From: Loxodes magnus
Lineage: Eukaryota > Ciliophora > Karyorelictea > Loxodida > Loxodidae
Length of the DNA: 64,000 nt
Reading direction: 5' to 3'
Assembly: GCA_946699065.1 (NCBI GenBank)
Contig: CAMPDV010000021.1
Location: 1,178,001-1,242,000, forward strand
Shown here: one piece after another, positions 6,786 to 62,548 of the stretch
Layout of the letters: the number at the start of each line of letters is the position of its first letter
Numbering within the stretch: position 1 is the stretch's first letter
Made by a program: the position numbers and the translations under genes
Notes under the pieces: model-generated
Told to the model about the DNA's origin: nothing
Database searches by the model: none
Seen by the model: only the letters and a program-made list of their open reading frames with translations

Positions 6786-7620
6786 TTTATCGCTTAATTT
6801 ATTAAATAGTTTGCTATCAATTTAACAGTAGCTGATAATTATTAACTACATTAAAGTAAATTCCCTATATAACTTTTCATTTTATATATAACCATTAGAA
6901 ACTCCTATTTCACTACTTTTGCTTATCTCTTACTAGACTAACTTTAAACACTTATGTTCCTTAGTTCTTTTAGTTAAATAATCTTAGTCTATAAAATATT
7001 ATTATTCTAACTTTTACTATCTTAGAGGCTAAGCTGCATCTAGAGAAGTCAGAATAATATATACCTCTAAGTACATAAATTAGAAGGTAAATAGATTTAG
7101 AATTAAGCTAAAGGATAAGAATAAATAGTTATAATGTATAGCATTAGTAGAGATTACTATCTAACATAATGTAATCACTTAGACAATAAGCAGCAGATAA
7201 CTATAAATCAATCTAGTTTTAATGTATTTACTTCTATCTCTAGTTATAAGCACTTTGCTTATAACTATTTTCTATATCTTATACTAGAACTTTTAAATAA
7301 ACCATTATAGAAGACATTACTTAAAGCATATTCAGTTCTATAAGCATTACTTATTTCTACTAAAGTGGATTAAAGAAGAACTTACTACATTAAAGCGTAT
7401 TATTAAAATCATGCATTCCTAATAAACTAATAAACCATGGGTTCTTTAATCTATAATACATTCAAAAGCAGGTGTATAGATATTCCACATTTGCTATTAT
7501 TAAATAATAAAGAATAAGAGAGTGATATGAAAGGTTTATAAGCATAATGCTATATATTATAAATAAAGCTTAGCACTTTATAATTAAAAATAAAATCATA
7601 ATAAAGGCTTTGGGCATATA
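6786..7620. other. Intergenic A+T-rich region between divergent genes
   Basis: Holds the upstream regions of the TMEM230-like gene (minus) and the calpain (plus). No gene or recognisable regulatory motif. Confidence 0.4.
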
Positions 7621-9708
7621 ATGGCATAAAAGGATATTTAAAATTTAATTTAAAGGTTCAAAGTTTTAATTCCTTCGTTAGAATCCTAGGTATAGAACCT
7701 AAATGATATAAATCAGAGATTAGAGAATGAAAATATATAATTCATAGATACAGTTTTTCCTCCCATTGATTAGTCAGTATTTGGAAATGAAAACTCAGAT
7801 AAAAAAATTTAATGAAGAAGAGCAAGTGAGTTCATGCCTGAAAATGAGATTCAGATATTTTAAACAGGAGCAATGCCTAATGATATTATATAGGGGTAGT
7901 TAGGAAATTGCTGATTTATGTGCTCTCTTTCATCTTTAGCAGAACCTTAATAAAATAATTCCATTGATTTAGTAAAAAGACTCTTCATAACAGAAGGCTA
8001 CAATAAAAATGGGATGTACATTTTAAAGCTATGCAAAAATGGTGAGTGGTAAAATATAATAGTTGACGATTATTTCCCTTGTAAGCCAAATCAAGGCCCT
8101 ATTTTTGCGAAAAATTTTGGAAATGAAATTTGGGTATTGCTTTTAGAAAAAGCTTATGCTAAGTTGCATGGCTCGTATTATGCACTTAGAGGAGGATTTT
8201 GCTATGAAGCAATGATGGACTTAACAGGTTTTCCTACTTCAGTTATAAGCATTCCATAGTAATAATAAGAGGATTTTTAAAGTTAAAAGGAGAACTTCTT
8301 TTAGTAACTTTACTAATGAGACTAGAAAGGTTACTTAATTTCTGCTGGTATGCCAGGAGAAGATAAATGATCTGAAAAAGCGGAGCATAATAAAACTTCT
8401 GGTCTCATAGCTGGACATGCTTACTCATTGTTAAAAGTAGTAGATGTTAATAACTAAAGGTTAATCTAACTTCGAAATCCATGATCGAAAGTTGAATGAA
8501 ATGGAGATTGAAGCGACAATTCTGATAAATGGACTAAAAAAATGATAGAAGGTTGTAATTTTACTTCTGATCCACAAGATGGTTCATTCTGAATGAGTTA
8601 TGATGATTTTATTAACTACTTTATTGAAGTAAATGTTTGCAAAGTACAAAACTGAAATGAGGCTAGAGTTAAAGGGAAGTTTTCTAAATTAAAAAACTCC
8701 AGAGAAGTAATTTCCAAATGAGTCTATATTTTAAAAATAGAAGGACAAAAGGGTAAGAAATATGATGTTAATATAACGTTACATCAAGAAGATCCAAGAA
8801 TTTAGCATGTAGAAGAGTTAAGGCCTTCCTAAGATATCCATTTTGCTATATTCAAATTGGATTAAAATGGTTAATGAAATTTCTTGTAAGTTGTAATTTA
8901 ATATACACCCTTTGAAAGATAAATATTGCTAGAAACTTAATTTGAAATAGGTTAATATCTAATTTTCCCTTTTACAACAGGAAAGAGACTTAATCCAGTT
9001 AATTAAACAAGCTAAAGGGTACCTTTATTAAAAAATGGTTAAATGACTCAAGTTTTTAGAACTACTTGCATTGATATATTTAGAAAACTTGATCTCTTTA
9101 TGAATTAAATGCTAAACTTTGAGGAATTCAACTAGCTGTTTCAAAATACGAGTACAAGATTTACCTCTCAGACATTTTAAGAAGAAATTATTTAAAAATA
9201 TTAATCATATGAAAAGGAACTTACTTTGCAAGGATTCCTTCATTTCATGGAAGCTTTTACTTAGCAGAAAGAAGAAGAAGTATGGAGTATTTTGAGTAAT
9301 CTAGGGTATAGAGAAGACTTGTTTAGCGAATTTTCTAGAGTGATTGTTTTATCGATTCACTCAAATGCTAATTTTAAAATAAGATGCGAAGCAAATAGCT
9401 TTTAGATGAATTAGGACTAATTAAGTATAATCATTGAAAAAAATCACAATTTAGCCATAACACCAAATGAATAAAAATATTTACAAATATTAAAAATTGA
9501 AATATCTAAATACCTAACCTTTTATGTCGCTTCCAACCAAGAAAAAGCAGATTTAAATATTGCGATAGATTTTTCTTAGTCAAGCAATGTATTTTATGAC
9601 TAAATATAAAAAACTGTGTAAGCTGGTTAAACCTCGTATCTTGGATCGGTATTATGTGATTAGAATAGTGAGGACTCAGAGTTAATAGAAGTTTATACGA
9701 TTAGTTGA
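7621..9708 (+). CDS. Calpain-type cysteine protease
   Basis: 695 codons from ATG 7621 to UGA 9706-9708, no intron needed. All three catalytic residues of a C2 peptidase are present: Cys in QLGNCWFMCSL (residue ~96), His in TSGLIAGHAYSLL (~266) and Asn in LRNPWSKVEWNGDWSD (~286). Four conserved Trp in these blocks are written UGA (NCW, NPW, EWN, GDW), which is strong evidence for UGA = Trp. After the protease core come beta-rich C2-like segments (residues ~340-500) and a helical region. No penta-EF-hand is evident. Likely an active calcium-responsive cytosolic protease. Confidence 0.9.
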
Positions 9709-19993: not shown

Positions 19994-20515
19994 TCAGTAC
20001 TTATGCTCTTCAACTGCTCTATTTATTTCCTCTTCAGCACTCTTGAGAACGGCAGAAAAGCTTTCCTCTAATTTTTACTTATCTTTATTATTAGCTACTT
20101 TAGCTCTAGCTTGCTCAACTTCGTTTTTGACTTCTTGTAGATATCTTGCTTTTAGAGTTAGTATATTTTCCTATGCACCTTATTATGGCTTTACTTTAAC
20201 TGTTAGTACCTCGAAATCTCTAGTAACTTCATGTCCTCCTTCTTTCAGAACATATTCAACTTAAGGGGCGAAAGTTCGGTCGAATACCTAAAGAGTTAGT
20301 TAGCTGTTAGAATCAACATTAACTTTGCTAACATATGATATAGGAGCTTTTTCTCCCCAAGCAAGAACTGTATAATTATCAAGTATTTTTTGATGTAAGT
20401 TTTTACCAGTATAAATCATTGCCAGATCGTTTAAAAATTATGACTATTTTGCTACTACAGACTAAGAAGTCCTTGCAAGAAGAGAAACACTGAAAAAGCG
20501 ATTGATGAACCTCAT
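19994..20515 (-). CDS. Ribosome-recycling-factor-like protein, possibly mitochondrial
   Basis: 173 codons, ATG 20515 to UGA 19994-19996. The N terminus (MRFINRFFSVSLLARTSQS) is rich in Arg, Ser and hydrophobic residues and lacks acids, as mitochondrial presequences do. The body resembles RRF in layout: a beta portion (VSKVNVDSNSQLTLQVFD … FEVLTVKVKP), then two long charged helices (ARYLQEVKNEVEQARAKVAN … KSAEEEINRAVEEHK). RRF releases ribosomes after termination. The match is by eye; the usual RNIR-type motif in the long helix is not clear, so another small mitochondrial protein remains possible. Confidence 0.45.
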
Positions 20516-21002: not shown

Positions 21003-21577
21003 TAGACTTTTTATTCTTTGATTACCAGCCAATTTAAATTTCCTTTAATTTAAATCTAAAGAAATTATCCTAAAAGAATTTCCTTTTTAAATCTATACTA
21101 AATTCTAAGCATCTATATCACTGCTTTTACTATAAACTATTCTAACCAATTAAATACCTAGAAACAAGATTATGGTCTTATAAGATTGGTACTGTTAATC
21201 TAGAATAATAAAGAAGATACAAATAAAGGTGGAAGAATAGCAAAAGACAACTAGCGGATATAATAGCTAAAATAGAGGAATATTAAACTTTTATTTTCAG
21301 TCTAAAAAGCTAAATTTATATATTTATATAATTTAAAGGAAAACATTAGCATGTAAGTCACTAAAATTATAATATAAAAACATACTTCAAAGATAGACTG
21401 AAGTTAAGTTATCATCATTAAGGAGGAGCATAAGATGATAGAATTAAAAAGGAGAATTTAAGGAGATGTTATATAAGAAAAGAATGCAATAAACAGAGAT
21501 TTGATGGAATGAAGAGAAAAGACATATTTAGTAAATAAATTTTATTATTTGTTAAAGTTTAAAAAACTATAATAAAA
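21003..21577. other. Intergenic between divergent genes
   Basis: A+T-rich and purine-rich near 21390-21530. No gene supported. Confidence 0.4.
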
Positions 21578-22484
21578 ATGCAAGGAAATGATCCTTCATG
21601 GCCAAATCAATATCCTTATTCAGATTTACCCGAAAATATGTATTAGTAAGGTTGGGATTATTATGGAGGTAACTAACAAGATTTTAACACATAAGAAGAT
21701 TACGACAATCAATACTTTCCTGATTACAACAACATGGGATATCCTCCTTAATATGGATCTTATAATTATCCTCAAATGACACCTTCTACATTTAATTAAT
21801 TCCCTAATATTAATCCAGTTAATTTCAACACTAGCCTTCAATGTGGTCGTTTCTTTGTTATCAAATCATATTCTGAAGATGATATTCACAAGTCTATCAA
21901 GTACAACGTATGAAGCAGCACGAAAGAAGGAAATGGGAAATTAGATTTCGCGTTTAAAGAAACAGCAGGAAGATGGCCTATCTATCTTTTCTTTTCAGTA
22001 AATGCATCAGGACAATTTGTTGGAATCGCAGAAATGAAGTCAGGTGTAGATACATCCAAATCTTTTGGTGAATGGGCACAATAAGGAAAATGAATGGGAT
22101 AATTTGACGTTTAATGGATTTACGTAAAAGATGTGCCTAACAAAGAATTTAGAAATATTATTTTAGAGTAAGTTTTAATACAGAAACAACGAAAACAAAC
22201 CAGTCACTAATTCTAGAGATACTCAAGAAGTTCCTCTTAAGCAAGCTTGTTAAATGCTAGAGATTTTTAGAACTTACAAAAATAGAACAAGCATTCTTGA
22301 TGATTTCGACTTTTATGATAAAAGATAAGTGGAAATGGATACAAACAAACAGTAGTTGGAAGGAAACTTATAAGTTGAAGATAACCTAGTCTAGCAAATA
22401 AAGAAATCGCAGCTCAATCCAAAGTCAACTGAATTCCAGTTTAAAGGAAATTTAAAAAATCCAAATTAGTCAAATCAGAGTTGA
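21578..22484 (+). CDS. YTH-domain m6A RNA reader
   Basis: ATG 21578; removal of a 16-nt intron (22168-22183) gives a continuous YTH domain. An N-terminal ~75-residue Tyr/Asn/Gln/Pro-rich tail precedes the domain ([20 protein letters not shown] … FEIW-type core). Key blocks: KYNVWSST (cage Trp ~111), [28 protein letters not shown] (second cage Trp ~171) and [14 protein letters not shown]. Both cage Trp are UGA codons. After the domain are a helix and a Gln-rich tail. The stop is given as UGA 22482-22484; the next in-frame UGA (22734-22736) would add 84 codons and cannot be excluded. Binds N6-methyladenosine in RNA; cytosolic YTHDF-like layout. Confidence 0.85.
22168..22183 (+). other. 16-nt intron in YTH gene
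   Basis: GTAAGTTTTAATACAG. Splicing joins FRNIILE to [12 protein letters not shown], exactly as in YTH proteins; unspliced, the domain is lost. Among the smallest introns in the window. Confidence 0.85.
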
Positions 22485-42240: not shown

Positions 42241-42910
42241 TTGCATAAGACAAAAAAGTTTCATTAATATGAAAGTTAAGAGATTAAATTTATTATATAG
42301 ATAGAATAATTTAACAGTTTAAAATTCTCAAAATTAAAAATTTTACAGAATGATAATAAGCATAAAAACGTTAAATGAGTCGAAATACAAGAAATAAGTG
42401 ATTGCTATATAACTATATGAAATAAATAAGTAAAGTGATAAAATAATTAGCAATTAATATTTAAAATCTAATAAGCATAGATAAATAATTTCTAAGGTAA
42501 GTTAATAAAGAAAATTAAATGAACTTGTTTATAATTAAAATTTTACTGTCTCCTAGCGAAATAAGTAAATTAAAAAGTGGACTAATGAGATAGATCGAGT
42601 AAGTAGTAAAGATTAGTTAATTATAATAATTAATAGATTAAAAATCTGATTAAGCTATAGCTTCCATTTATAATATAACTGTTTAACTTATTATTTCTTA
42701 ATGAAGATGGGAATTTGCATATTTTTATAGCTAATAAGCATAAATTTGTCTAAATTTAATGTAAAAGCAAGGCTTCTAATACTTTTATATTTCCAAGTTA
42801 TTATTTTAGCTGTGATGAGAGGGAAATTAAGAATTTAACCTAAGTAGTTTAGATTGAATTTACTTAGAAAGATTAGAGAATTAGAAGTTTTTAAATTAAG
42901 TATTTGATTG
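42241..42910. other. Intergenic A+T-rich region
   Basis: Between the decayed STAND gene and the HAD phosphatase. No gene seen. Confidence 0.35.
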
Positions 42911-43777
42911 TCAGAAATTCTTAAAAATATCACTTAGTTTTTCTAGTACAAAGTCAGGCTGATAATCAGGGTATTTATATAGATCAGATCTTTTATGTAT
43001 GCCAGTTTCAACTAGCAAGCTTTTAATTCCTGCATTTTTTGCTAGTTTAATATCAGTTTCCATTGTATCTCCTATTACTAAAATTCGCTATTTATCTAAA
43101 TCATTAAATTGTTAAAGTAATTAATCAACTGCAATTTTATTAGGCTTTCCTAGTATAGTTGGTTCTATAATATCTTTCAGTCCGTATATTATTTAAGCCG
43201 AGGTTGCTGAACTGCCTGGATGCTTTTAATTTCCAACTTTCAGAGATTAATCAAGATTAGTTATAAAAAATTTAGCTCCGTTTTAAACAAGCAGCGATGC
43301 ATAAATAGACTTAGCATAATTGATTTTATTATCAAAGCCAACTACAACAGCCTAATATGAATAATCAGGCTGAATTAATCAAAAGTCATTCTAAGTTTTA
43401 AACTCAAAGTCATTTAAAAAACTTCCATTCAATAATTCAAAACCATAGTTCTATAGCTCTTCCATCAATCCTTCTGATCCTATCACAAAGAGTTTTTTTA
43501 TTTCAGGATACTAATTCTTAATAAAATTGGCAGTAACATAAGCAGAAGTTATAATTTAGTCAATAGTAACTCTAGAATACCCAAAATTGATAAGTTTCTA
43601 CAAGTAAGTTTTCCTAGATTTGGTAGTATTATTTGTATAGAAATAAATTCTCTTACCTAAATCACTTAGTTTATTCAGAGTTTCTATGCTTCCTTCTATT
43701 GGGGAATCTAATTCTCAAAGTACTCCATCACAATCAAATATGAATAGATCAAAATCAGTGACATTGATGCTTTGCAT
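42911..43777 (-). CDS. HAD phosphatase, phosphoglycolate/pNPPase type
   Basis: 288 codons, ATG 43777 to UGA 42911-42913. All HAD motifs are present: motif I FIFDCDGVLW (nucleophile Asp), motif II YTNNTTKSR, motif III Lys in LGKPNK, and motif IV VIGDTMETDI. The C2 cap insertion has the size and order of the PGP/PDXP/4-nitrophenylphosphatase family, as does the full length. One UGA codes Trp in VLWELDS and another in NDFWLIQP. Likely a soluble Mg-dependent enzyme clearing 2-phosphoglycolate or similar small phosphates; substrate not decidable. Divergent from the H3 gene by 205 bp. Confidence 0.9.
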
Positions 43778-43982
43778 TTATTTTAATTAAAAGAGTTCTA
43801 ATAGAAAGTTACATTGAAAATAACCTTTAAACTTTATTTAAATTGCTCCTTTTATTAATTAGGCTAGTTCATTTGAATTAAGAATTACTGTGAGCCGCCT
43901 TATTCATATCCATTTAAATTTAAAATAGAAAAGAAAGGCGGATCGTTCTTTACTATAAAAGGGGGTTTAATAATAAAAATCA

Positions 43983-51740: not shown

Positions 51741-54333
51741 TCATTAAGAGATATTTAAGTTTCTAATACTAATATAAAGCTGATTATTAAAATGACATGC
51801 TAGAACTATTAATTAGTTTTTGATTTCATTAATATAAATAGCAAATTTAAATTAGCTATTAAGAAGAATTTAGTTTTACTTCATTAAAATAATTTAGTTA
51901 CTCTTATTAAAATTTATGCTTGTAAGAATCTAGTCTTTTATGGTTATTATTAAAAATAACTTGGTTCTAAAATATTAGAACTATAATAATTAAATTATCA
52001 AATAAAAATAAATAAATTATGTTTATTTTTTGTAGAACTAACTATTCATTTTGTTTTTCATATTTGAAATTCTGCCTTTCAACTCCTCTATCTGAATGTT
52101 CTTGTTTTATTTTTACTTATCGTGCTTCTAGATAATCTGTTAACTGCTTTTTAGTTAGCCGCTTAACTACTAAATATGTGAATCAAGCTCCTCTATTTTG
52201 TTCATATAATCCTAACTATATTTATGTGGGCTTTAGGTTTGAGAATAAACTTTTAATTATTTTTTTGATAAATTAGGGCTTAAAATATCTGTGTAAATAC
52301 TAGAAATAGCTTTTTAGGTTTTTTGCTAAATGGCCATTTTTTATAATTATTGTCCAATTTATTATTGTTCATTTTTTTGAATTTAACTTTAAAGAAGATT
52401 TTACTAATCTTTCAGTTAATTATTCTCGTTTTATATTTAAAATAGTTAGCTTCTTGTTTATTAATGTTGTATTTTCAATTCTGAAACTTCAGATTCTTTT
52501 TAAAAGATTTACTACTAAAGTTTCTAAAATTCAATTTAAGTTTGTGGCTTTTAGAGTTTAATAGATCTATTTTCTTCTTGCAATTATTGAATTTATTGCT
52601 TTAGATGTTTTTCGCTGTTTTGATTCTAGCTTTAAATTTAATCAATTTGAGCTTTTAGTTCCATTATAGCGTCTTGAATTTCATTATTTTTATCTTCTTT
52701 TTTCTTATTAAGTTTACCATCTCATTCACTTTAATTCCTTTAAATACTTCTAAGTTCACTTTCATGTAGTTAATTCCTAATTAAGTTTCTGCTACTATGC
52801 AAATCTAAAGATTCCAAGTTTCTTTGCTATTCATTTAATTCTTAGACTTAAAGTTGAGACTGTAGGTATTAGCACTCTTATTCTAATTAATAAAGCTTCT
52901 AGTTGTAGCTATCACTTAATTCTTCTATCTACTTCCTATGTTATTAAGAATATAATTACATTTCTTGAGAATTCTATATTTTAAGCTCTTTATTTTGGTT
53001 TAGCAAATTCTAAACTTCGTAATCTTTTTATTATAATTATTCTTGTAAAATCTCTAGTTAGTTTTACTGCTGCTTGATAGTTAAGGATAGCTTTTCAATG
53101 TGAGAATTTTTACTTAAAATTTCTTATTCTTGTTCATCTATAATTTATTGCCTTTTATTTATTTCATTCTCAAGGATTTATTAATTTTGCTTAAGTTTAA
53201 CCTCACTCTCATAGTTTAGTATATTTAATTTTTCTTCACTTTGCTAAAGCTAATTTCTATAATTTTCTAGTTATATCTACAACTTTTCTCTCTGCAGTTA
53301 GGAATCTTGTAACTAGCTTTATTAATTTTTTATTTGGCTATTAAGCTAATTTTACAGGCTTTCTAGGTGGATTTATTTTTACTCCTTTACTTTTTGAATC
53401 TCATCTTAGTACTAATTTTTAAGTTACACAACATCGTTAAAGAGCGATTTTTTATCTTTTTCATTTTGAATATTATCTTGCTTGAATTGAGCATATAAGT
53501 TTTCATACTGTTTCTAGTAATAGCATAAGTCCTATTTAAGTTTCTTTATTTCATTTTCTTTTTCGTCTAAAATAGTTTTCATTCCTTATAATTCATTTTA
53601 ATATAATGATTCCTTTTCAGATAGTTACTTTTGTAAAATAATAATAGATTTTTCGCTTTCCTCGTATTTTAACTTTTATTATTCAAGATTTTCTGAAAAC
53701 TTTTTGGTATTATTCTTCGATTTGTTGCATTAACTCCATATTGTCTTTTTCGAGATGAGAAAATTTACTTTTTCATACCTTTTTTACAGATTATTCTACT
53801 TTATATTTCTGCTATTATATCAGTTTATCTGTTTAATCAATTTTTGCTTCTAGCTGTCTTTTCAATTGATCAATATCCTCTCTCTGCTTAAATAATTCTT
53901 AGTCTTTCTCTTTTCTTAAAATTTAAAGCTCAAATTGCAACTAGTCTCTTTCTTCCTTTAGTTATTACTAATTTACAAATTATTTTTATAGTTCTCCCTG
54001 ATAATTTTCCTATATTTCAGCAAGTCTAAGTCTCATGTCATTAAACTGCATATCTTTTTCTCTCATTGCATTCTATGAACTGATAAGTTACTCTTCTACT
54101 TTTAAATAATAAGCTTGCTTTTAATTTTAAACTTGGATGCTTTTCTCCAATTCCTAAGTACGTTAGTTTATTTCTAGTTCTAAATCTTAAATTTCTTAAT
54201 CCTTTTTTACTAAAATCTACTCCAATTACAAGACCCTAATATTGTTAATCTCTTTCAGTTCTCTTTCTTTTTTAAGCAAAGCTTCTGCTATATTTTCTTC
54301 ATGTAGTTGATGTCAGTCAGAGTATAAAGACAT
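51741..54333 (-). CDS. Long coiled-coil protein with one frame break
   Basis: ATG 54333. Coiled coil in one frame to ~53705 (DNMELMQQIEEQYQK), then in the +1 frame from ~53700 (FSENLEQQKLKYEESEKSII). One extra base in a run (reads …AAAAAGTTTT… on the minus strand) explains it; no GT-AG intron of suitable length fits. With the shift the length is 863 codons to UGA 51741-51743. The clearly protein-like part ends near 52035 (NMKNKMNSQFYKKQ). Coiled coil nearly throughout, with a short Ser/Pro/Tyr linker near 52290. Either a sequence error, a frameshifting site or an early pseudogene. Likely ciliary or cytoskeletal. Confidence 0.55.
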
Positions 54334-55399
54334 TGTATTCGATTAAAATATTCAATTAATTTAAATAATAGTTAACTGTAAGTTCCTTAAGCTTATTTAG
54401 TCTTTTAATAACTTAAGAATTTCTAAATATTTCTTAAGGAAACTCTTTACTTCATCTTTCCAATGTAATTATTAATACTTATATATTCTCAATGCTTTTC
54501 AAAATAGATTACTAATTTTCAATTATGTAAGTATCTCTCTGTTTAAAGACATGAGTTCAAAATGTTCATCCAAAAGACAAATTTAAGAGCGAATTAATTT
54601 AGGTTACTAGGATTGCCAATCTAAAAATAGAGTGTAGATATATAAGCTAAATTAATTAAATTGCTTTAACTATTATAGCACAGAAATCATTTTATATCTC
54701 TAATTTACTTTAATAAGTCTAAATGTTTTGCTATAGATATTAAGTTAAATCTTTAAGATAAGACTAATTATAATTGATAATCTCTCAAAAATAGTAAGTT
54801 TAGATATTTCCTAATTAATTAGGAATAAGCATCACTTTTTACGTCTAACTAGTATATACTTAAGCAATAAATAAATAGCTTACAGAGTGATATTGTAAAT
54901 CATAATCTAAATTATATTTTAACTTTATTTGATAGGTTTTGTTATATATTTAAGTACCTACTTAATATTATCAGCTAATAATGAACTCTATTTTCAGGTT
55001 ATATTTAATAAGTATAGCTTATTAATCCTATTTTATTTAGGTAGTTTAAACTAAGCTATTATTCTAGTTTCAGTAGTAATAAATAATTAAATGGTTTAAA
55101 TATTAGGAGTAATACCATAGAGATTGCTTACATTTTGATATTAATATATTAACAAATCTATAAGAAAGTAATCTGTTAAATTAATAAGTGTATTAAGACC
55201 TCATTCAGAATATGTTTATTAAATAAGCAATTCTGAGATATTTCTACTAACTTGAATCAATTGAGGTTAAGTAAATTTACATGGAGCTTTTTTAATAAAG
55301 TTGATTTATGAGATTAGAATATTAAGTAATGTGAAGTAGTTTTATAGAAGTAGAAAAATAAAAGCCATTTTTTAGATAGAAACAATTATAAAGTCATAG
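54334..55399. other. Intergenic A+T-rich region
   Basis: About 1 kb upstream of the coiled-coil gene and downstream of the SECIS hairpin. Nothing recognisable. Confidence 0.4.
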
Positions 55400-55453
55400 A
55401 AAAGGAAACTCATACAAAGCAATTATTTGATGCCTTGCAATCACATTCCTTTT
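55400..55453 (-). promoter_or_regulatory. SECIS-like hairpin (selenocysteine insertion element)
   Basis: On the RNA (minus strand), 12 nt after the SelW stop: helix I AAAAGGAA paired with UUCCUUUU (8 bp), core GUGA opposite UGA, helix II UGCAAGGC paired with GCUUUGUA (8 pairs, two G-U plus Watson-Crick), and apical loop AUCAAAUAAUU with the unpaired A run. This is the order of a eukaryotic SECIS: helix I, UGA/GA quartet, helix II, A-containing apical loop. Its place directly 3' of a SelW-like frame with in-frame UGA supports function. Helix II is on the short side unless quartet and flanks are counted. Confidence 0.75.
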
Positions 55454-55465
55454 TTAAAAACCGCA

Positions 55466-55747
55466 TCAAGCAAATATCTGCTTAACATCTCTGGCAATTT
55501 TGGCTGGAGTGCCTGGTGTATATTTATCGCCTTCCAAGTTGTTAAAGAGTTATTTTTCGTTTCCATCAATAAAAGCAATGACTTAAAAGATTCCGGAATT
55601 GTCTTCAAAGACCTTAAGTTCAATTTCATTACTCTTGATTGATGGAACCGCGCTCAAAACGGCTTTTTTGGTTGATTCTGCTTTCGGTTTATGGTTTCAA
55701 GCCGATCAATAGTTTATCATTAACTTCACCTACGTCCCTCCTTCCAT
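55466..55747 (-). CDS. Selenoprotein W-like (Rdx family), UGA-x-x-UGA motif
   Basis: 93 codons, ATG 55747 to UGA 55466-55468. SelW layout: a first strand ending in Tyr, then redox loop Y-UGA-S-A-UGA-N-H-K-P-K-A (UGA at residues 14 and 17), then helix, strand (ELKVFEDNSGIFQVIAFIDG), and GDKYTPGTP, with a terminal helix (AKIARDVKQIFA). In animal SelW the loop is Y-C-x-x-U-G-Y-K-P-K, so the second UGA falls exactly on selenocysteine and the first on the partner Cys. Length is typical. The SECIS hairpin just downstream supports UGA = Sec. G+C is visibly higher than in flanking DNA (about 40% in 55501-55560). Alternative: both are Trp, giving a redox-dead protein. Confidence 0.8.
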
Positions 55748-56230
55748 ATTATAAAAAGTAATTAACATCCTTATATGCTCTTGATTAGCGTTATTTTAAA
55801 CGATAATTAAAAAAAATGACTATGTCAACTAACTCAAATATAAATTAAATTTACTATACCTTTAAAACTAAGCTATCAGCTCTTATCAATCCTCTGTTTA
55901 GCTATTGGCTACTATGTTCCCTAATTACTAATCTATTCAATACAGGAAATATATATTCCATAAGAAATTAAATTAGTTAAAAAGAAGCAATGAAAAGAAA
56001 GGCTATGAAAGAGCTGATTAAAGTTAATCAGCAAATTTTTATTACTCGAATAGAATTTCCAAATTATTAGATTAGAAGCAGGGCTAATTATATGGATTTT
56101 CTAATATTTATTAGCTTAATTTTAATTATTCCCTTTAACTTAAAATTTAAATTAAATTATATCCTTTAGTAGTTTTATTGTTTACGTTAAGAAGGTAATT
56201 TGAGTTATAAATATTACAAAAATAAATAAG
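55748..56230. other. Intergenic region
   Basis: Upstream region of the SelW-like gene and 3' of actin. A+T-rich, nothing specific recognised. Confidence 0.4.
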
Positions 56231-57367
56231 TCAACAAAAGAATTTTCTCTACACAAATAGATCTCTATCTGGGCCTTTTTCATAATATTCATGCCTCTCA
56301 ATACTCATCTTACTAAATGTACTTAAACTTGCTAGAACACTACCTCCTATCCAAACAGAGTAAAGTCTTTCTGGAGAATCTTTTACTTCAGGAACAGTTC
56401 CTACTGGAGCTAAGTTCTTGACGGTAGCGTAAAGCCTTTCCTTTAATCCGGGGAATAATGTTGAACCTCCCAAAAGAACAATATTAGAATAGAGTTCTCT
56501 TCTTATTTCTTAATCTGATTTCATTACAGATTGATATAATTTATGGTGGAGCCCATCATCTTCTATTCCAAGTAATTGTGGCTCAAATAAAGCTTCTGGA
56601 CATCTAAATCTTTCATATCCAATCAATATTGTGTTGCCATCAGGTAATTCATAAAATTTGTTGCTTGCATCTTGTTCTTCAGCCAATTTAGATTCATGTT
56701 CGAAATCTTCAGCAATGTAGCACTCTGTTTCTTTAATATTTCTTACGATGTCTATTTCCATAGGTGTTGTAAAAGCATACCCTCTGTCTGCTAGCATGTC
56801 TCTTAAATGGAATGTTAAAAACTCCCCTGAAACATCTAGTCTATTTATTGCATGTATACTTGCATAACCTTCGTAAACTGGGAGTGTATGTGTAGCTCCT
56901 TCACCAGCATCAACTACCATTCCTGTTGTATATCCTGTAGAAAACAAACCTAAAACTCCTGAGATGCAAGAAAAATAAGCAGGAGCACTAAAATTTTCAA
57001 ACATCAGCTCAGCTAACTTCGCTCTAGTTGCCGGAGGAGTTAAGGGTGGTTCAGACATTAGAATTGGGTGCTATTCAGGAACTATTTTTAAAGCATTATA
57101 GCAAGTATGAAAGATTAATTTCTCTAAATCTTCCCAGTCTTATATACTTCTGAATTTCATTGGCTCTTTACAGTTAAGAATTCCTCTTTTTTCAATTGCT
57201 TCTTCACCTATATAGGCATCTTTCTAATCTAGTCCAACCATAATACCAGGCATTTATGGTCTACCAACAACTGATCTGAAAAAAGCTCTAGGTCCATCAT
57301 CACCTGCAAACCCTGCTTTAGTTGAATAAGCTCCTATATCAATAACTGCAGCAGCAACGTCTTCCAT
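56231..57367 (-). CDS. Actin, divergent paralogue
   Basis: 378 codons, ATG 57367 to UGA 56231-56233, no intron. Clear actin throughout: [82 protein letters not shown]. It is divergent at conserved sites. The first phosphate loop reads [10 protein letters not shown] rather than DNGSGxxKAG, and the second DAGEGATHT rather than DSGDGVTHT. The C terminus is [20 protein letters not shown] then RKFFC instead of the usual RKCF. UAA/UAG give Gln at conserved Gln positions (GRPQ, PEQHP). Likely a non-canonical filament or actin-related role; nucleotide handling may differ. Confidence 0.95.
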
Positions 57368-57637
57368 TTTTATATGAGAATATGAAACTTATTTTATTAT
57401 AGATCTCTTACTCCAGAACTAACAACTTTTAATTAGTGAAAGCAGTAAATAACTAATAAACAAAATCCTTTAACTTTAAATAATAAGGGCTAATTAAAAT
57501 CCTACCTGCTTATAAAAGCTACTAGTTTAATAATTAAGCTGCTCAAAGTTAAATAATTTAAAATTTAAAAAGTGCTAAAAACTGCTATTAAATTGAGGCT
57601 ATAAAGAAGTTAACTGCCAAATATATAAATAAGTATT

Positions 57638-59074
57638 ATGAGTACTAATCCAATATCCGGATAAGAGCAAGTATAGCGATCTAAATACTCTTTAATAATT
57701 GGAGTTGATCATACTGCTAATAAGTTTAGAGTTAGTAAGGAAGAAGTAATTAATTGAATAATAAACATTTATGATTCAGATAATAAACTTAATTAAGACC
57801 CACAAATAAATGAGCAAAAGAATGTGGAAGGAATAAATTAAGTGGCTTAATTAGATTAATTAATCAAATATAAAATTATTGAATCTTATGCTTAAACTTA
57901 AGACTTTAATCAAATTGCTAAGTAATTCGGATTGTCTTAATAAGCTTTGTCTCACTTAATTACTACCAATAAGCATTTGATATAGTTAAGATTATCTTAT
58001 CCTGAAATTTTTAGATTCAAGGAAATACAAAGAGAAGAAAACCCTCAGCAAATTTTACGCTTAGGGATTAAAAGAAAGATGATAAATATAAATAGTCAAA
58101 ATAGCATCGATAAGGAAAGCAAAGAGGAAGGCAAAAACTTAGAAGTATAATCCTTTAATTAAAGCATCCAAGAGAATTATAGAAATGAAGAAAGATTCTT
58201 TTAGCAATATTCAGGTAAAAAAAGATTTAAAAAAGATAGTAAATTTATGAACCAAAGTATAAGCTAAATTGGTGATTAGGAAACTTAATAATATACTCTA
58301 AAGGAAAAAGTATGGATTATAAATAAGATATAAATTCATGGTGTTCAAATTATTGAAAAAGAATTAAGTATTCCTTCTTCTTTTTTAATTAGAATGAAAA
58401 TAAGAGCTGATCAACTATTTTCAGAAAGACATATTAAGTACATTAAACAAAGAGAAGATACAAGAAAAGCTAATGATATCCGTCGATAAGTAGATGAATA
58501 TATAATAAATAAATATAAATAAAAAGATTTTTCTAGGTCTTCAAAATAAGATATATGACTTATAAGTAAAGCTTTAAAAGTTGCAAAAGCCTTAGGAAGT
58601 GAAGCTAAGCCAACTATTGAATGGTTGAAATGCTTTAAATTAAAATACTGCACTTAAACAGCCTAAGCTTAATATGCACATTTTGGTTAATAAATTAATA
58701 ATTTAACATTAATCTTGGACAATAACCTACAGTCACCCTATAAATTATATCACTTTATAAATAATTCTAATGATATTCTTTTTTATTTATTTTATCTATT
58801 TAATGAAAGCCAAATTAAAGATAAAAATTTATAATTTAGAGTAATCATATAATTCACTTAACCAAAAAATTATAAAAGCAATAATATAAAGATTATCAGC
58901 TTAACTAATCTTCAGTTACCATTAACTTCTTCCAATTTTTACATGGATTCCCTATATTCTAGTAAATAGCTTTTTATTAAGTGTGGACTAATGTTTCCTA
59001 TAAATGTCTTTAACAAAGTCTGCTTAATACCTTAAATTATCATAAGGAATTTATTTAAAAGTGTACCTAATTGA
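57638..59074 (+). CDS. Second multi-helix-turn-helix protein
   Basis: ATG 57638 to first in-frame UGA 59072-59074 (478 codons). Several HTH-like units: DFNQIAKQFGLSQQALSHLI is a textbook HTH; then IHGVQIIEKELSIPSSFLIR, and SKALKVAKALGSEAKPTIEW with UGA-Trp. Basic linkers separate them (LGIKRKMININ, SGKKRFKKDSKF). The clearly protein-like part ends near 58690; the last ~125 codons are open but less certain. Similar in style to the 44983 gene; together a small family of probable DNA-binding proteins, perhaps transposase-derived. No catalytic domain seen. Confidence 0.55.
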
Positions 59075-60364
59075 ATTAATAATATAGTTATAGATTATTA
59101 GTTTACTAGCTGAATTTGCACTCCTTGGCTTTAATATTATTAACTAAAATTCCAATCTAAATAAGATAAGTCAGTTGCCTTATACTATACAATTATTTAG
59201 CTTTATATTATTGAAGTATAGTAATTTTATATTTAAGTGATAAAGATTTCTGTATAATTGTCATTCTTAAACTACTTATATCTGAATGGTGTAAAGTATA
59301 AATGTAATAACTTAATCAGTATAAAGCAAATACCTTTAGTATATAATTGCTTCTCTTAAATTTATTTACTTAAGCATACTCTCATGAGATTCTATAGTTG
59401 TTCATCATTATTTGTAAATGATAATTACTATACCTCTACTATTTACTATTCAATAAATTAGAAGCTTGGCTAATAATATGTATTCCAATAATATTTGCAA
59501 ATTGGTTTCCTTTAAATTAATGTTTGATAGCTTTTGCTAGTTGTACAAATAATAATTTAGCTCTTATATTAAATAGCCTATTATTAAATACTACTTTATC
59601 TATCATTTATATACAAAAGATATAGTTAAGCAAGATGGTAAAGAGTTAGATACATGCAAGCAATAAGCAAGATAGGTTATTTATATAATACATCTAAAGA
59701 TTACTTTAACTATAGCATCTTTACTCATTTGATATATAATACTAACTTTTCACTTTTATTCTATAAGTTACTAATAGCTAAATATACTTAAATCTCTTTT
59801 ATTTCTCTAACATACAACTAGTAAATCTATTCTAGTAAACTATATAGCTTTCTTATCATTATGCTTTGCTAAAATTAGTTATAGCTTTTAAATCTTATAT
59901 TTCTTAAAAATTAGTATCAGGATAGATAAGAAAGGAATGACTGAGTAAAGAAACAAAATTGATAATGATTTTGAATGAGTAGATTTAAGTTTAATGATAG
60001 ATTCTAATTTTATGATACACTCTAGTTTGAATGAGTACAATTATAAGCCTTTATTTATTAAGCATCTATTTTATCTTTATTTGATACAGCAGGGAAGATA
60101 TATTAAAGTAGCTATAGTTAAAGGAAGAGCAATTCTAAAATTTAATTAGACTATAAATCTTAGCTTAATGTGTATCTTTTAAATAAACTCTCTAATATAA
60201 GCAAGTTGTAATAAGTACACTTAAATAGATAAAGTATACTAATAAGACTAGATAGTGAATATTAAGAAAGCCAAAAATAGTAGAAAGATAAGATAGTTAT
60301 AAGAGTAATAGCAGAGACTAATTTTAAAAGAGCATAGAATTTAATTTATTTAAGTAGAAATAAA
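59075..60364. other. Intergenic A+T-rich region
   Basis: About 1.3 kb with no gene I can support. Confidence 0.4.
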
Positions 60365-62548
60365 ATGAGCTAAAGTCGAAATATTTGGGGATGGGGAAGT
60401 GATAGTAGTGGACAATTAGCTTAAAAAGTTCCTTATTAACTACATAATTACCCAAAACTTTGTGATATTAAGAAAATCCCTCAAATTATATAAATTTCGT
60501 GCGGTTCTGAACATGCAGCTTTTCTCACACCAGAGGGAGCAGTTTTTACAATAGGAAATAATGAGGAAGGACGTTTAGGAATAGACAAAGAAGAAGTTTA
60601 GACTTCTCCAGTACCTGTTCTAGTTGAAGGGTTAAAGAATTAAAAAATTATTTAAATAAGTTGTGGATAATTCCACACTCTTGCTTTATCTGAATAAGGT
60701 GCTGTTTATTCATGGGGATTTGGAAATGATGGAGCTCTTGGGTCAGGCTCGACCTAAACTGAGTGAAAGCCTATAAAGGCCTTGTTACCTTCTGATTTTA
60801 TAGCAGTTTATATTTCAAGTGGTTCTAGACACTCTGGAATAGTTGGCTATTATTAACTAGAAGATTCTAAAGAAAATCCTAAATTTATTTTATTAATGTG
60901 TGGTGCTTCCAATGCAGGCTAATTAGGAACAGGAAGTAAAGATTAAGAACTAACGTTTGTGTTTGTTAATGTCTAAAATAAATAAAATAAGGCAAGGGAG
61001 GAAATTATGTAGGTCAGCTGCGGGATTTTTCATACTTTAATTTTAACTAAAAAAGGAGAAGTTTACTCTTGTGGAAGCAACTAGTTTGGATAACTGGGGC
61101 ATGGAAATAAAACTTCTTCAAGTGTGCCTTTAAAAATTGAAAGTCTGGAAAGTATTGTAAAAATAGCAGCTGGGTAACATAGCGCAGCAATTAATAATGA
61201 ATAGTGTCTATTTATATGAGGATCAGGAGTATTCGGTCAATTTTTAGAACCTCATTTAGTTAAGTAAATTAAGGAATCTGTTATTAATGTAGATGTAGGT
61301 GGAAATTTTGGAGTTGCTTTAGATGAAAAAGGTTAACTCTGAAGCTGGGGTAATAACTCTTCTGGAGAACTTGGGACAGGAGATAATAATCCTAGAATTG
61401 ACCCTGAAATATTTTTTTAAAATAGATATTTAAGGTAAATTAGTTGTGGAGAAGCTTTTGCTATGGCTTTAGGCTGAAGAGAATATGAAATAGCTAAAGA
61501 ATATTAAAGTTAGAAACAATAAAAACCATAATAGAAAAAGGCAGTTTAGTAGCAATAGTCACAGAGATAAGAGGAATAGATATTAGTAAAATAGGTTAAG
61601 CAAGAAAATATCATATAAAAAGCTCCTGAATAAGAACTTTATCAATCCTCACCATAAGAGGAAGAAATGACTTCTTATGAAAAGCATATTAGAGAATACT
61701 CAAAGAAGCAAAAATAAAAAGTTCATAAGCAATATTAAGAATTGTAAGGTCATCAAATTTAGCCTGAGTTCGTTGATAATACCTAAAGAAAACTTATTTA
61801 TGAATAAGAAAATAACCCTCAATAATAATTTTAACCTTTTGAATAGCAATTCATTTAACCTGTTCAAAGTTAATTTACATAGAATGTAAATTCCTTTAAT
61901 AAAATGAGGCCGTCAGAGAATGATAAAGAAAACAAATTAGAGTATATTAGCTAGTAAATCTCAGAATTAAAAGGGATGCTAGCTAATATTTAAGGCCCTC
62001 AAAAGGAAGATCTAAAAGCAAGAAATAAAAATTTAAAAAGTAATTTGAACTAAAATGCTTCCAAGAAAGTTAAATACACTTCCAATGCATTTTATAAGAA
62101 CTAAAAATGGGAAAAACCTATCATTACAACATAAGATTTGCAAGTTTCTCGTATACGTTCAAAGCGGGAAGATCCTATTCAAGTCATTAAAATCTAATCA
62201 TTTGCAAAAATGGTTATTGTAAGATAAAGATATAGGAAACTTAAATAATTCTTAAAAGCACTTAGTAAGGTACAAGCTTTAGTAAGAGGTGCTAGAGTAA
62301 GGGGCTTTGTCTGAAGAAAATATAGATTCGCAGTCAAAAAGCCCCAAAGTGTAAAACGTATAACGTTGGAACTTAAAAACAATTAAAATTTTGAGTTTTT
62401 GAAAAAAGAGATTGAAGAACTAAGAGAAGAAGTAAGAGAATTATAAAACTGGAGACATGAAGTAAATATACTATTGGACAGACATGAAAAAGCTTTCAGA
62501 TATTTATTTGAACAACTGGGAACTCTGTCAAAGAAGAACTAAATGTGA
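60365..62548 (+). CDS. RCC1-repeat protein with IQ motifs and coiled coil
   Basis: 727 codons, ATG 60365 to UGA 62546-62548, no intron. Residues 1-375 form an RCC1-type beta-propeller with the repeated GxxxxGQLG / SCGxxHTLAL signatures (WGWGSDSSGQLA, ISCGQFHTLALSEQGAVYSW, CGSNQFGQLGHG, WGNNSSGELGTGD). UGA = Trp is forced in FIWGSG and LWSWG. Then a Gln-rich linker. At ~residues 600-660 are two IQ-like calmodulin-binding motifs (IQSFAKMVIVRQRYRKL, VQALVRGARVRGFVWRKY), followed by a C-terminal coiled coil (KEIEELREEVRELQN). Probably a calmodulin-linked scaffold or Ran-type regulator, perhaps ciliary; no Ran-GEF residues can be claimed. Confidence 0.9.

Follow-up and report, generated by a model that had tools for sequence, protein, structure and literature searches.

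A SelW-like gene with two in-frame UGA codons and a SECIS-like hairpin in Loxodes magnus, a ciliate in which UGA also appears to serve as tryptophan and stop codon

Introduction

The closest described counterparts of the locus reported here come from Condylostoma magnum and Parduczia sp., for which UGA has been termed "a codon triality" (Swart et al., 2016; PMC4967479). In the available part of that report, both resemble Loxodes in having an ambiguous code in which UGA means Trp, stop and, with SECIS elements, Sec, thioredoxin reductase (TrxR) being an example, and C. magnum has a tRNA-Sec, as does Loxodes (PMC4967479). Parduczia is, moreover, a karyorelict like Loxodes. The differences are that other genera are concerned, that the example is TrxR and not SelW, and that the same part of the report mentions no gene with two Sec codons (PMC4967479). 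The initial annotation of this locus had stated that no three-way use of UGA was described from a UGA-ambiguous ciliate, which is contradicted by C. magnum and Parduczia sp. (PMC4967479).

A second group of related cases concerns the redox motif and the sharing of UGA between amino acids. Excerpts of the respective reports describe SELENOW proteins of amphioxus and Ostreococcus lucimarinus which, like the Loxodes SelW, have two Sec in a UxxU motif (PMC7539508), as well as UxxU in a bacterial Prx-like family (PMC2398784). In the SelTryp gene of Blastocrithidia, Trp-UGA and Sec-UGA occur within one gene, but Blastocrithidia is a trypanosomatid and its termination signal is UAA, according to the portion consulted (PMC12153298). 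Amoebophrya sp. ex Karlodinium veneficum shares with Loxodes the reassignment of all three stop codons, three likely selenoproteins and a SECIS, found in selT, but is a syndinean, and the selenoproteins named in the excerpt are selT, selM and selO (PMC6394959). In Euplotes crassus UGA specifies Cys and Sec (Turanov 2009, as cited in an excerpt of PMC12153298). Like Loxodes, this organism is a ciliate in which one codon specifies two amino acids, but with Cys in place of Trp. UGA is not known to serve as a stop codon in E. crassus, and in amphioxus and Ostreococcus it is known only as stop and Sec, hence in the latter two, unlike in Loxodes, there is no competing Trp decoding.

For Loxodes magnus itself, a macronuclear assembly of 706 Mbp is available, in which UGA is described, in the part of the report consulted, as the sole stop codon and also as Trp (PMC11441545). 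The main text of that paper contains no word starting with "selen", and among the matches listed in a search of the open-access literature no paper on Loxodes selenoproteins was found. Here we describe a SelW-like gene within a window of 64 kb of L. magnus DNA, the whole stretch that was analysed, together with related genes elsewhere in the genome (705,730,643 bases on 7,843 contigs searched). The gene adds to two known kinds, the UxxU SELENOW and the UGA-triality genome. The earlier observation proves correct, with more in its favour than was first put forward; the earlier claim of novelty was wrong.

A SelW-like frame with UGA at both active-site positions

The SelW-like (Rdx) coding sequence lies at 55466..55747 on the minus strand of the window and comprises 93 codons followed by a UGA stop codon (55466..55468, minus strand). 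With UAA and UAG read as Gln and UGA as Sec, its translation begins MEGGTQVKLMINYUSAUNHKPK, and the codons from 55747 onwards correspond to MEGGTQVKLMINY-UGA-SA-UGA-NHKPKAESTKKAV. The UGA at residue 14 (55706..55708, minus strand) falls on the first active-site position, which is normally Cys, and the UGA at residue 17 (55697..55699, minus strand) on the Sec position of SelW, so that the two would together occupy both active-site positions of the CxxU motif, giving UxxU if both are read as Sec. The initial annotation had described a 93-codon SelW/Rdx frame with UGA17 at the Sec position before KPK and a UGA stop, all of which are present; the UGA at residue 14 had been overlooked.

The family assignment depends on what is placed at the two UGAs, since the Pfam Rdx model (PF10262) gives 31.7 bits with Cys at both, above the cut-off of 22.6, and only 14.6, 15.7 and 17.9 bits with Trp, Arg and Ser, respectively, all below it. 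The NCBIfam SelWTH model TIGR02174 scores 27.4, below its cut-off of 34.2, and the sole BLASTP match to mouse SelW aligns INYCSACNHKPK over VVYSGACGYKPK, 12 residues, with an E-value of 0.003. A first protein database search for homologues yielded no candidate and another yielded seven, none with E ≤ 0.1; plasmid tblastn found no homologue, and a sequence search of the PDB found none at E ≤ 1, the two-copy profile retrieving a single unrelated entry (E 2.4). A second Pfam match, DUF6389 (19.1 bits, cut-off 27), is absent from the paralogue described below and was dismissed as chance. A structure model computed from the gene and its paralogue together predicts a thioredoxin-like fold of the SelW type; it was preferred for its confidence over a single-sequence model (pLDDT 65.5), for which the structural matches shown were other small folds, without SelW.

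A diverged paralogue within a duplicated block

Only two places in the genome scored in a search with the SelW protein, namely the gene itself and a paralogue, L014 (G000:C67:260886-261164), which is 65% identical in that search and 69% identical when the two proteins are aligned pairwise and Cys is put in place of the UGAs. The paralogue likewise has UGA at codons 14 and 17, a UGA stop at the same place (codon 94) and a 3' hairpin, and it scores 31.0 against Pfam Rdx (cut-off 22.6). A codon-by-codon comparison of the two frames shows 42 of 93 codons unchanged, 22 with synonymous differences and 29 that encode a different residue, and a simple count of the Nei-Gojobori type gives dN 0.20 and dS 0.95; judged from these substitutions, the frame is under purifying selection. 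Neither frame contains a Cys codon or a TGG codon. In-frame ATGs occur at codons 1 and 10 of the window gene and at codons 1 and 9 of the paralogue and nowhere else, and therefore no start downstream of the UGAs could yield the protein.

Matching blocks around the two copies (actin, 83%; the SelW region, 75%; 51983-54295, 64%; and a further three that are smaller or displaced) suggest a segmental duplication. Actin, SelW and adjoining stretches are contained in this duplicated block (window 42896-43779 and 51983-58639, and L015) at 64-83% nucleotide identity, and the copy of the HAD hydrolase is placed elsewhere in the window. Immediately 3' of the UGA stop, the sequence TGCGGYTTT is conserved (window 55457-55465, minus strand; L014 1783-1791), and might serve as a context for the stop or set the spacing of the SECIS. 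A third Sec at UGA94, reached by readthrough, was considered in view of this conservation but rejected, as the frame is not conserved past it.

A SECIS element downstream of the stop codon

Type I eukaryotic SECIS elements are hairpins of the 3'UTR with helices I and II, a UGAN/NGAN quartet and an AA apical loop some 11-12 nt further on. The hairpin at 55400..55453 on the minus strand has all of these features: helix I of 8 bp begins 12 nt past the stop codon and is followed by a GUGA/UGAG core (core UGA 55441-55443), a helix II of 8-9 bp and an apical loop whose AA stands 12 nt after the core UGA, much as the initial annotation had drawn it (8-bp helix I, GUGA/UGA core, 8-pair helix II, AA loop). 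The core UGA starts 22 nt past the stop in both SelW copies. For the window hairpin the folding energy is -17.9 kcal/mol (z -3.56, none of 200 shuffles as good) and a shorter cut of it gives z -2.79 (4/200), whereas the hairpin of the paralogue, at -13.7 (z -1.36, 22/200), is unexceptional on its own, and the evidence for a SECIS is consequently comparative: of eight helix II pairs compared between the copies, two carry two-sided changes and one a one-sided change, all of them paired in both, and a ninth also pairs in both.

In a scan of the 64 kb for SECIS-like structures, the window hairpin was the best of three matches. A simulation of 400 windows of 64 kb produced hairpins with helix II of at least 9 and helix I of at least 8, thresholds which are the values observed in the window hairpin itself, in 18 of them (mean per window, both strands, 0.045); by arithmetic, the chance of finding one within 100 nt of a particular stop, on its 3' side, is about 4e-5. 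With Rfam at E ≤ 1, the region 50-64 kb gave two chance-like matches and no SECIS family. An excerpt of PMC7409322 states that in the glutathione peroxidases of ciliates SECIS predictions do not coincide with Sec, and a SECIS alone is for this reason weak proof of Sec.

Genes for tRNA-Sec and SPS2, and other Rdx genes

The initial annotation had proposed that the genome be searched for tRNA-Sec and SPS2, and three genes of the former and two of the latter were found. The tRNA-Sec genes (L001-L003) score above the Rfam cut-off (73.9, 70.5 and 63.5 bits), and ARAGORN classifies all three as tRNA-SeC(tca); 49 of the 52 Rfam matches fall below the cut-off, and the sole one of these that was checked (L004) is a tRNA-Ser. 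The similarity between L002 and L003 extends over long flanks (90-95% identity), and the part that L001 has in common with them is the gene plus about 50 nt only.

A SelD model search found two places, L016 and L017, both SPS2, which are 78% identical across 344 codons, counted from a Met that may lie downstream of the true start. Each of these stretches has a single UGA, in CGMKG-UGA-GCKVPQ, aligned to TELKGTGCKVPQ of "selenide, water dikinase 1", which we take to be the Sec position of SPS2. The alignment ends in IIEV immediately before a UGA stop, and the three Trp codons in each stretch are all TGG. SECIS-like hairpins follow in both genes, with the core UGA 24 nt past the stop; among the 10 helix I pairs compared, three show two-sided changes and one a one-sided change, all paired, and helix II is unchanged.

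A whole-genome Pfam Rdx search returned four other loci, the window SelW itself not being listed. One of them (L010) reads as SelT-like and the others (L009, L011 and L012) read as other Rdx proteins; no Sec UGA was clearly seen in any of the four.

UGA at tryptophan and stop positions in neighbouring genes

The genes around SelW provide the context in which its UGAs are read. In the calpain frame (7546..9687, plus strand), which has 11 UGAs in all, six of the eight in-domain UGAs (residues 90, 123, 313, 318, 322 and 349, not 258 and 275) are aligned to Trp of calpain-1. The YTH-domain frame (21134..22150, plus strand) has a UGA at 21911 in KYNV-UGA-SST, at a Trp position of YTH; near it lies a ribosome recycling factor-like frame (20006-20488, minus strand; PF01765, 5.3e-11). 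UGA 439 of the RCC1-repeat frame (59903..62539, plus strand) is aligned to Trp of UVR8, UGA 288 is not at a UVR8 Trp, and the remaining UGAs lie outside the alignments shown. The actin open frame (56231..57775, minus strand; domain from about 57364; PF00022, 1.1e-105) has no internal UGA and ends in RKFFC-UGA. The earlier assignments of UGA to Trp in calpain, YTH and RCC1 and to stop in actin are thus borne out, but the H3 gene named as a further example of a UGA stop was not found in the window with a small set of motifs, strict and loose, searched in six reading frames, with Pfam at 46.7-47.76 kb, or with Pfam scans covering part of the frames.

Three kinds of UGA position in thioredoxin reductases

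Searched with TIGR01438, the genome yielded 10 matches, of which five score above the cut-off (L018-L022); the set excludes L023, L024 and L025, whose matched stretch lacks the GCUG end, and the two remaining matches. L018 and L020 are 99.7% identical and may be alleles, leaving four clearly distinct copies. All five have UGA at residues 77 and 87, the positions of Trp in mouse TrxR2 (aligned for L018, assigned by position for L019-L022), and all five carry TGC-UGA-G, with its UGA at 484, and directly thereafter a UGA stop (GC-UGA-G-UGA end). L022 has further UGAs at residue 42, which is Trp in mouse TrxR2, and at 396, where the other four copies have TGG and mouse has Phe; it contains four Trp-position UGAs and no TGG. 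Each copy is followed by a SECIS-like hairpin, its arms picked by eye, with the core starting 35-37 nt past the stop and a helix II of 8-9 pairs in four copies and 6 in L019.

These frames allow the position of each UGA to be compared with that of the SECIS core. The Sec-position UGAs lie 44-46 nt (TrxR 484), 256-265 nt (SelW) and 1032 nt (SPS2) from the core, the Trp-position UGAs of TrxR 309 nt (residue 396 of L022) and 1235-1371 nt (the others), and the stops 25-40 nt. As UGA396 is nearer to its core than the Sec UGA of SPS2, distance to the SECIS may not sort Trp from Sec UGAs; the classes interleave through UGA396 alone, however, a codon of one copy whose counterpart in mouse is not Trp, and without it all Trp UGAs lie at 1235 nt or beyond, farther away than any Sec UGA, so that a distance limit would still fit. 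If the UGA at 309 nt is Trp, distance is not the rule, and either a signal local to each UGA or a tolerated mixing of Trp and Sec at non-catalytic sites must decide.

We consider it reasonably probable, from the positions aligned here, that single mRNAs of L. magnus read UGA in three ways, with TrxR using it for Trp, Sec and stop. No mention of a single TrxR frame that has UGA at a Trp, a Sec and a stop position was found in the parts of the literature consulted. At the level of the genome, the alignments support the earlier claim that UGA has three meanings: it would stand for Trp in calpain and in the TrxR of L018, for stop in actin and SPS2, and for Sec in SelW, SPS2 and TrxR, so that L. 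magnus appears to show the UGA triality.

Discussion

The gene very probably encodes a SelW-type selenoprotein of thioredoxin fold in which UGA14 and UGA17 are both Sec through a type I SECIS, with the stop UGA terminating near the transcript end and UGA being mostly Trp elsewhere. This reading draws on the sequence, the predicted fold, conservation in the paralogue, covariation of the SECIS and the tRNA-Sec and SPS2 genes, and the same lines (paralogue, covariation, tRNA-Sec, SPS2, predicted fold) lend strong support to the original proposal of a selenoprotein with a SECIS. In the mechanism that we propose, tRNA-Sec, recruited through the type I SECIS 12 nt past the stop, would decode UGA14 and UGA17 as Sec, while the stop UGA would terminate because it lies near the end of the transcript, in keeping with the position rule in the literature on such ciliates, and the UGAs of most other genes would be read as Trp. 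The redox motif would then be Sec-x-x-Sec, and Sec at both sites would form a redox centre of the diselenide type.

UGA is a frequent Trp codon in L. magnus, as the 11 UGAs of the calpain frame illustrate, and the conservation of UGA by itself does not exclude Trp at residue 14. It is conceivable, if unlikely, that only UGA17 is Sec and that UGA14 follows the general rule and is Trp (WxxU), or that both sites carry a mixture of Trp and Sec. Two UGAs that align with Trp in a TrxR gene bearing a SECIS-like hairpin speak for this, as a SECIS seems not to force every UGA to Sec. On the other hand, position 14 is the Cys position of the family, the Rdx score requires Cys-like residues there, both copies have UGA and not TGG, and UxxU SELENOW proteins are known elsewhere, as noted in the excerpt of PMC7539508.

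That both UGAs are Trp, or one of them an early stop, with the hairpin and the resemblance to Rdx accidental, would be in line with the weak similarity to mouse SelW (the 12-residue match) and with the use of UGA as Trp elsewhere, but is highly improbable given that the hairpin covaries in the paralogue, that a SelW fold is predicted, that purifying selection acts across the frame, that no Cys remains in the protein and that the Sec genes are present in the genome. Even less credible is that errors in the assembly turned two TGY (Cys) codons into UGAs: TGA differs from TGT or TGC by one base, but four errors would be needed, at matching codons in a pair of genes with 65% identity, each followed by a hairpin.

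With Sec at both UGAs as the preferred reading of SelW, Loxodes would add a karyorelict whose selenoprotein genes number eight or nine copies (two SelW, two SPS2, and four or five TrxR), each with a SECIS-like hairpin on its 3' side. In most eukaryotes, a SECIS causes an in-frame UGA to be read as Sec and not as a stop. In Loxodes it must also beat Trp decoding, yet UGAs in the same TrxR frames align with Trp, and the point worth following up is how Trp or Sec is chosen within a single message that carries a SECIS. The SelW, SPS2 and TrxR genes of L. magnus would make the selection among Trp, Sec and stop directly testable.
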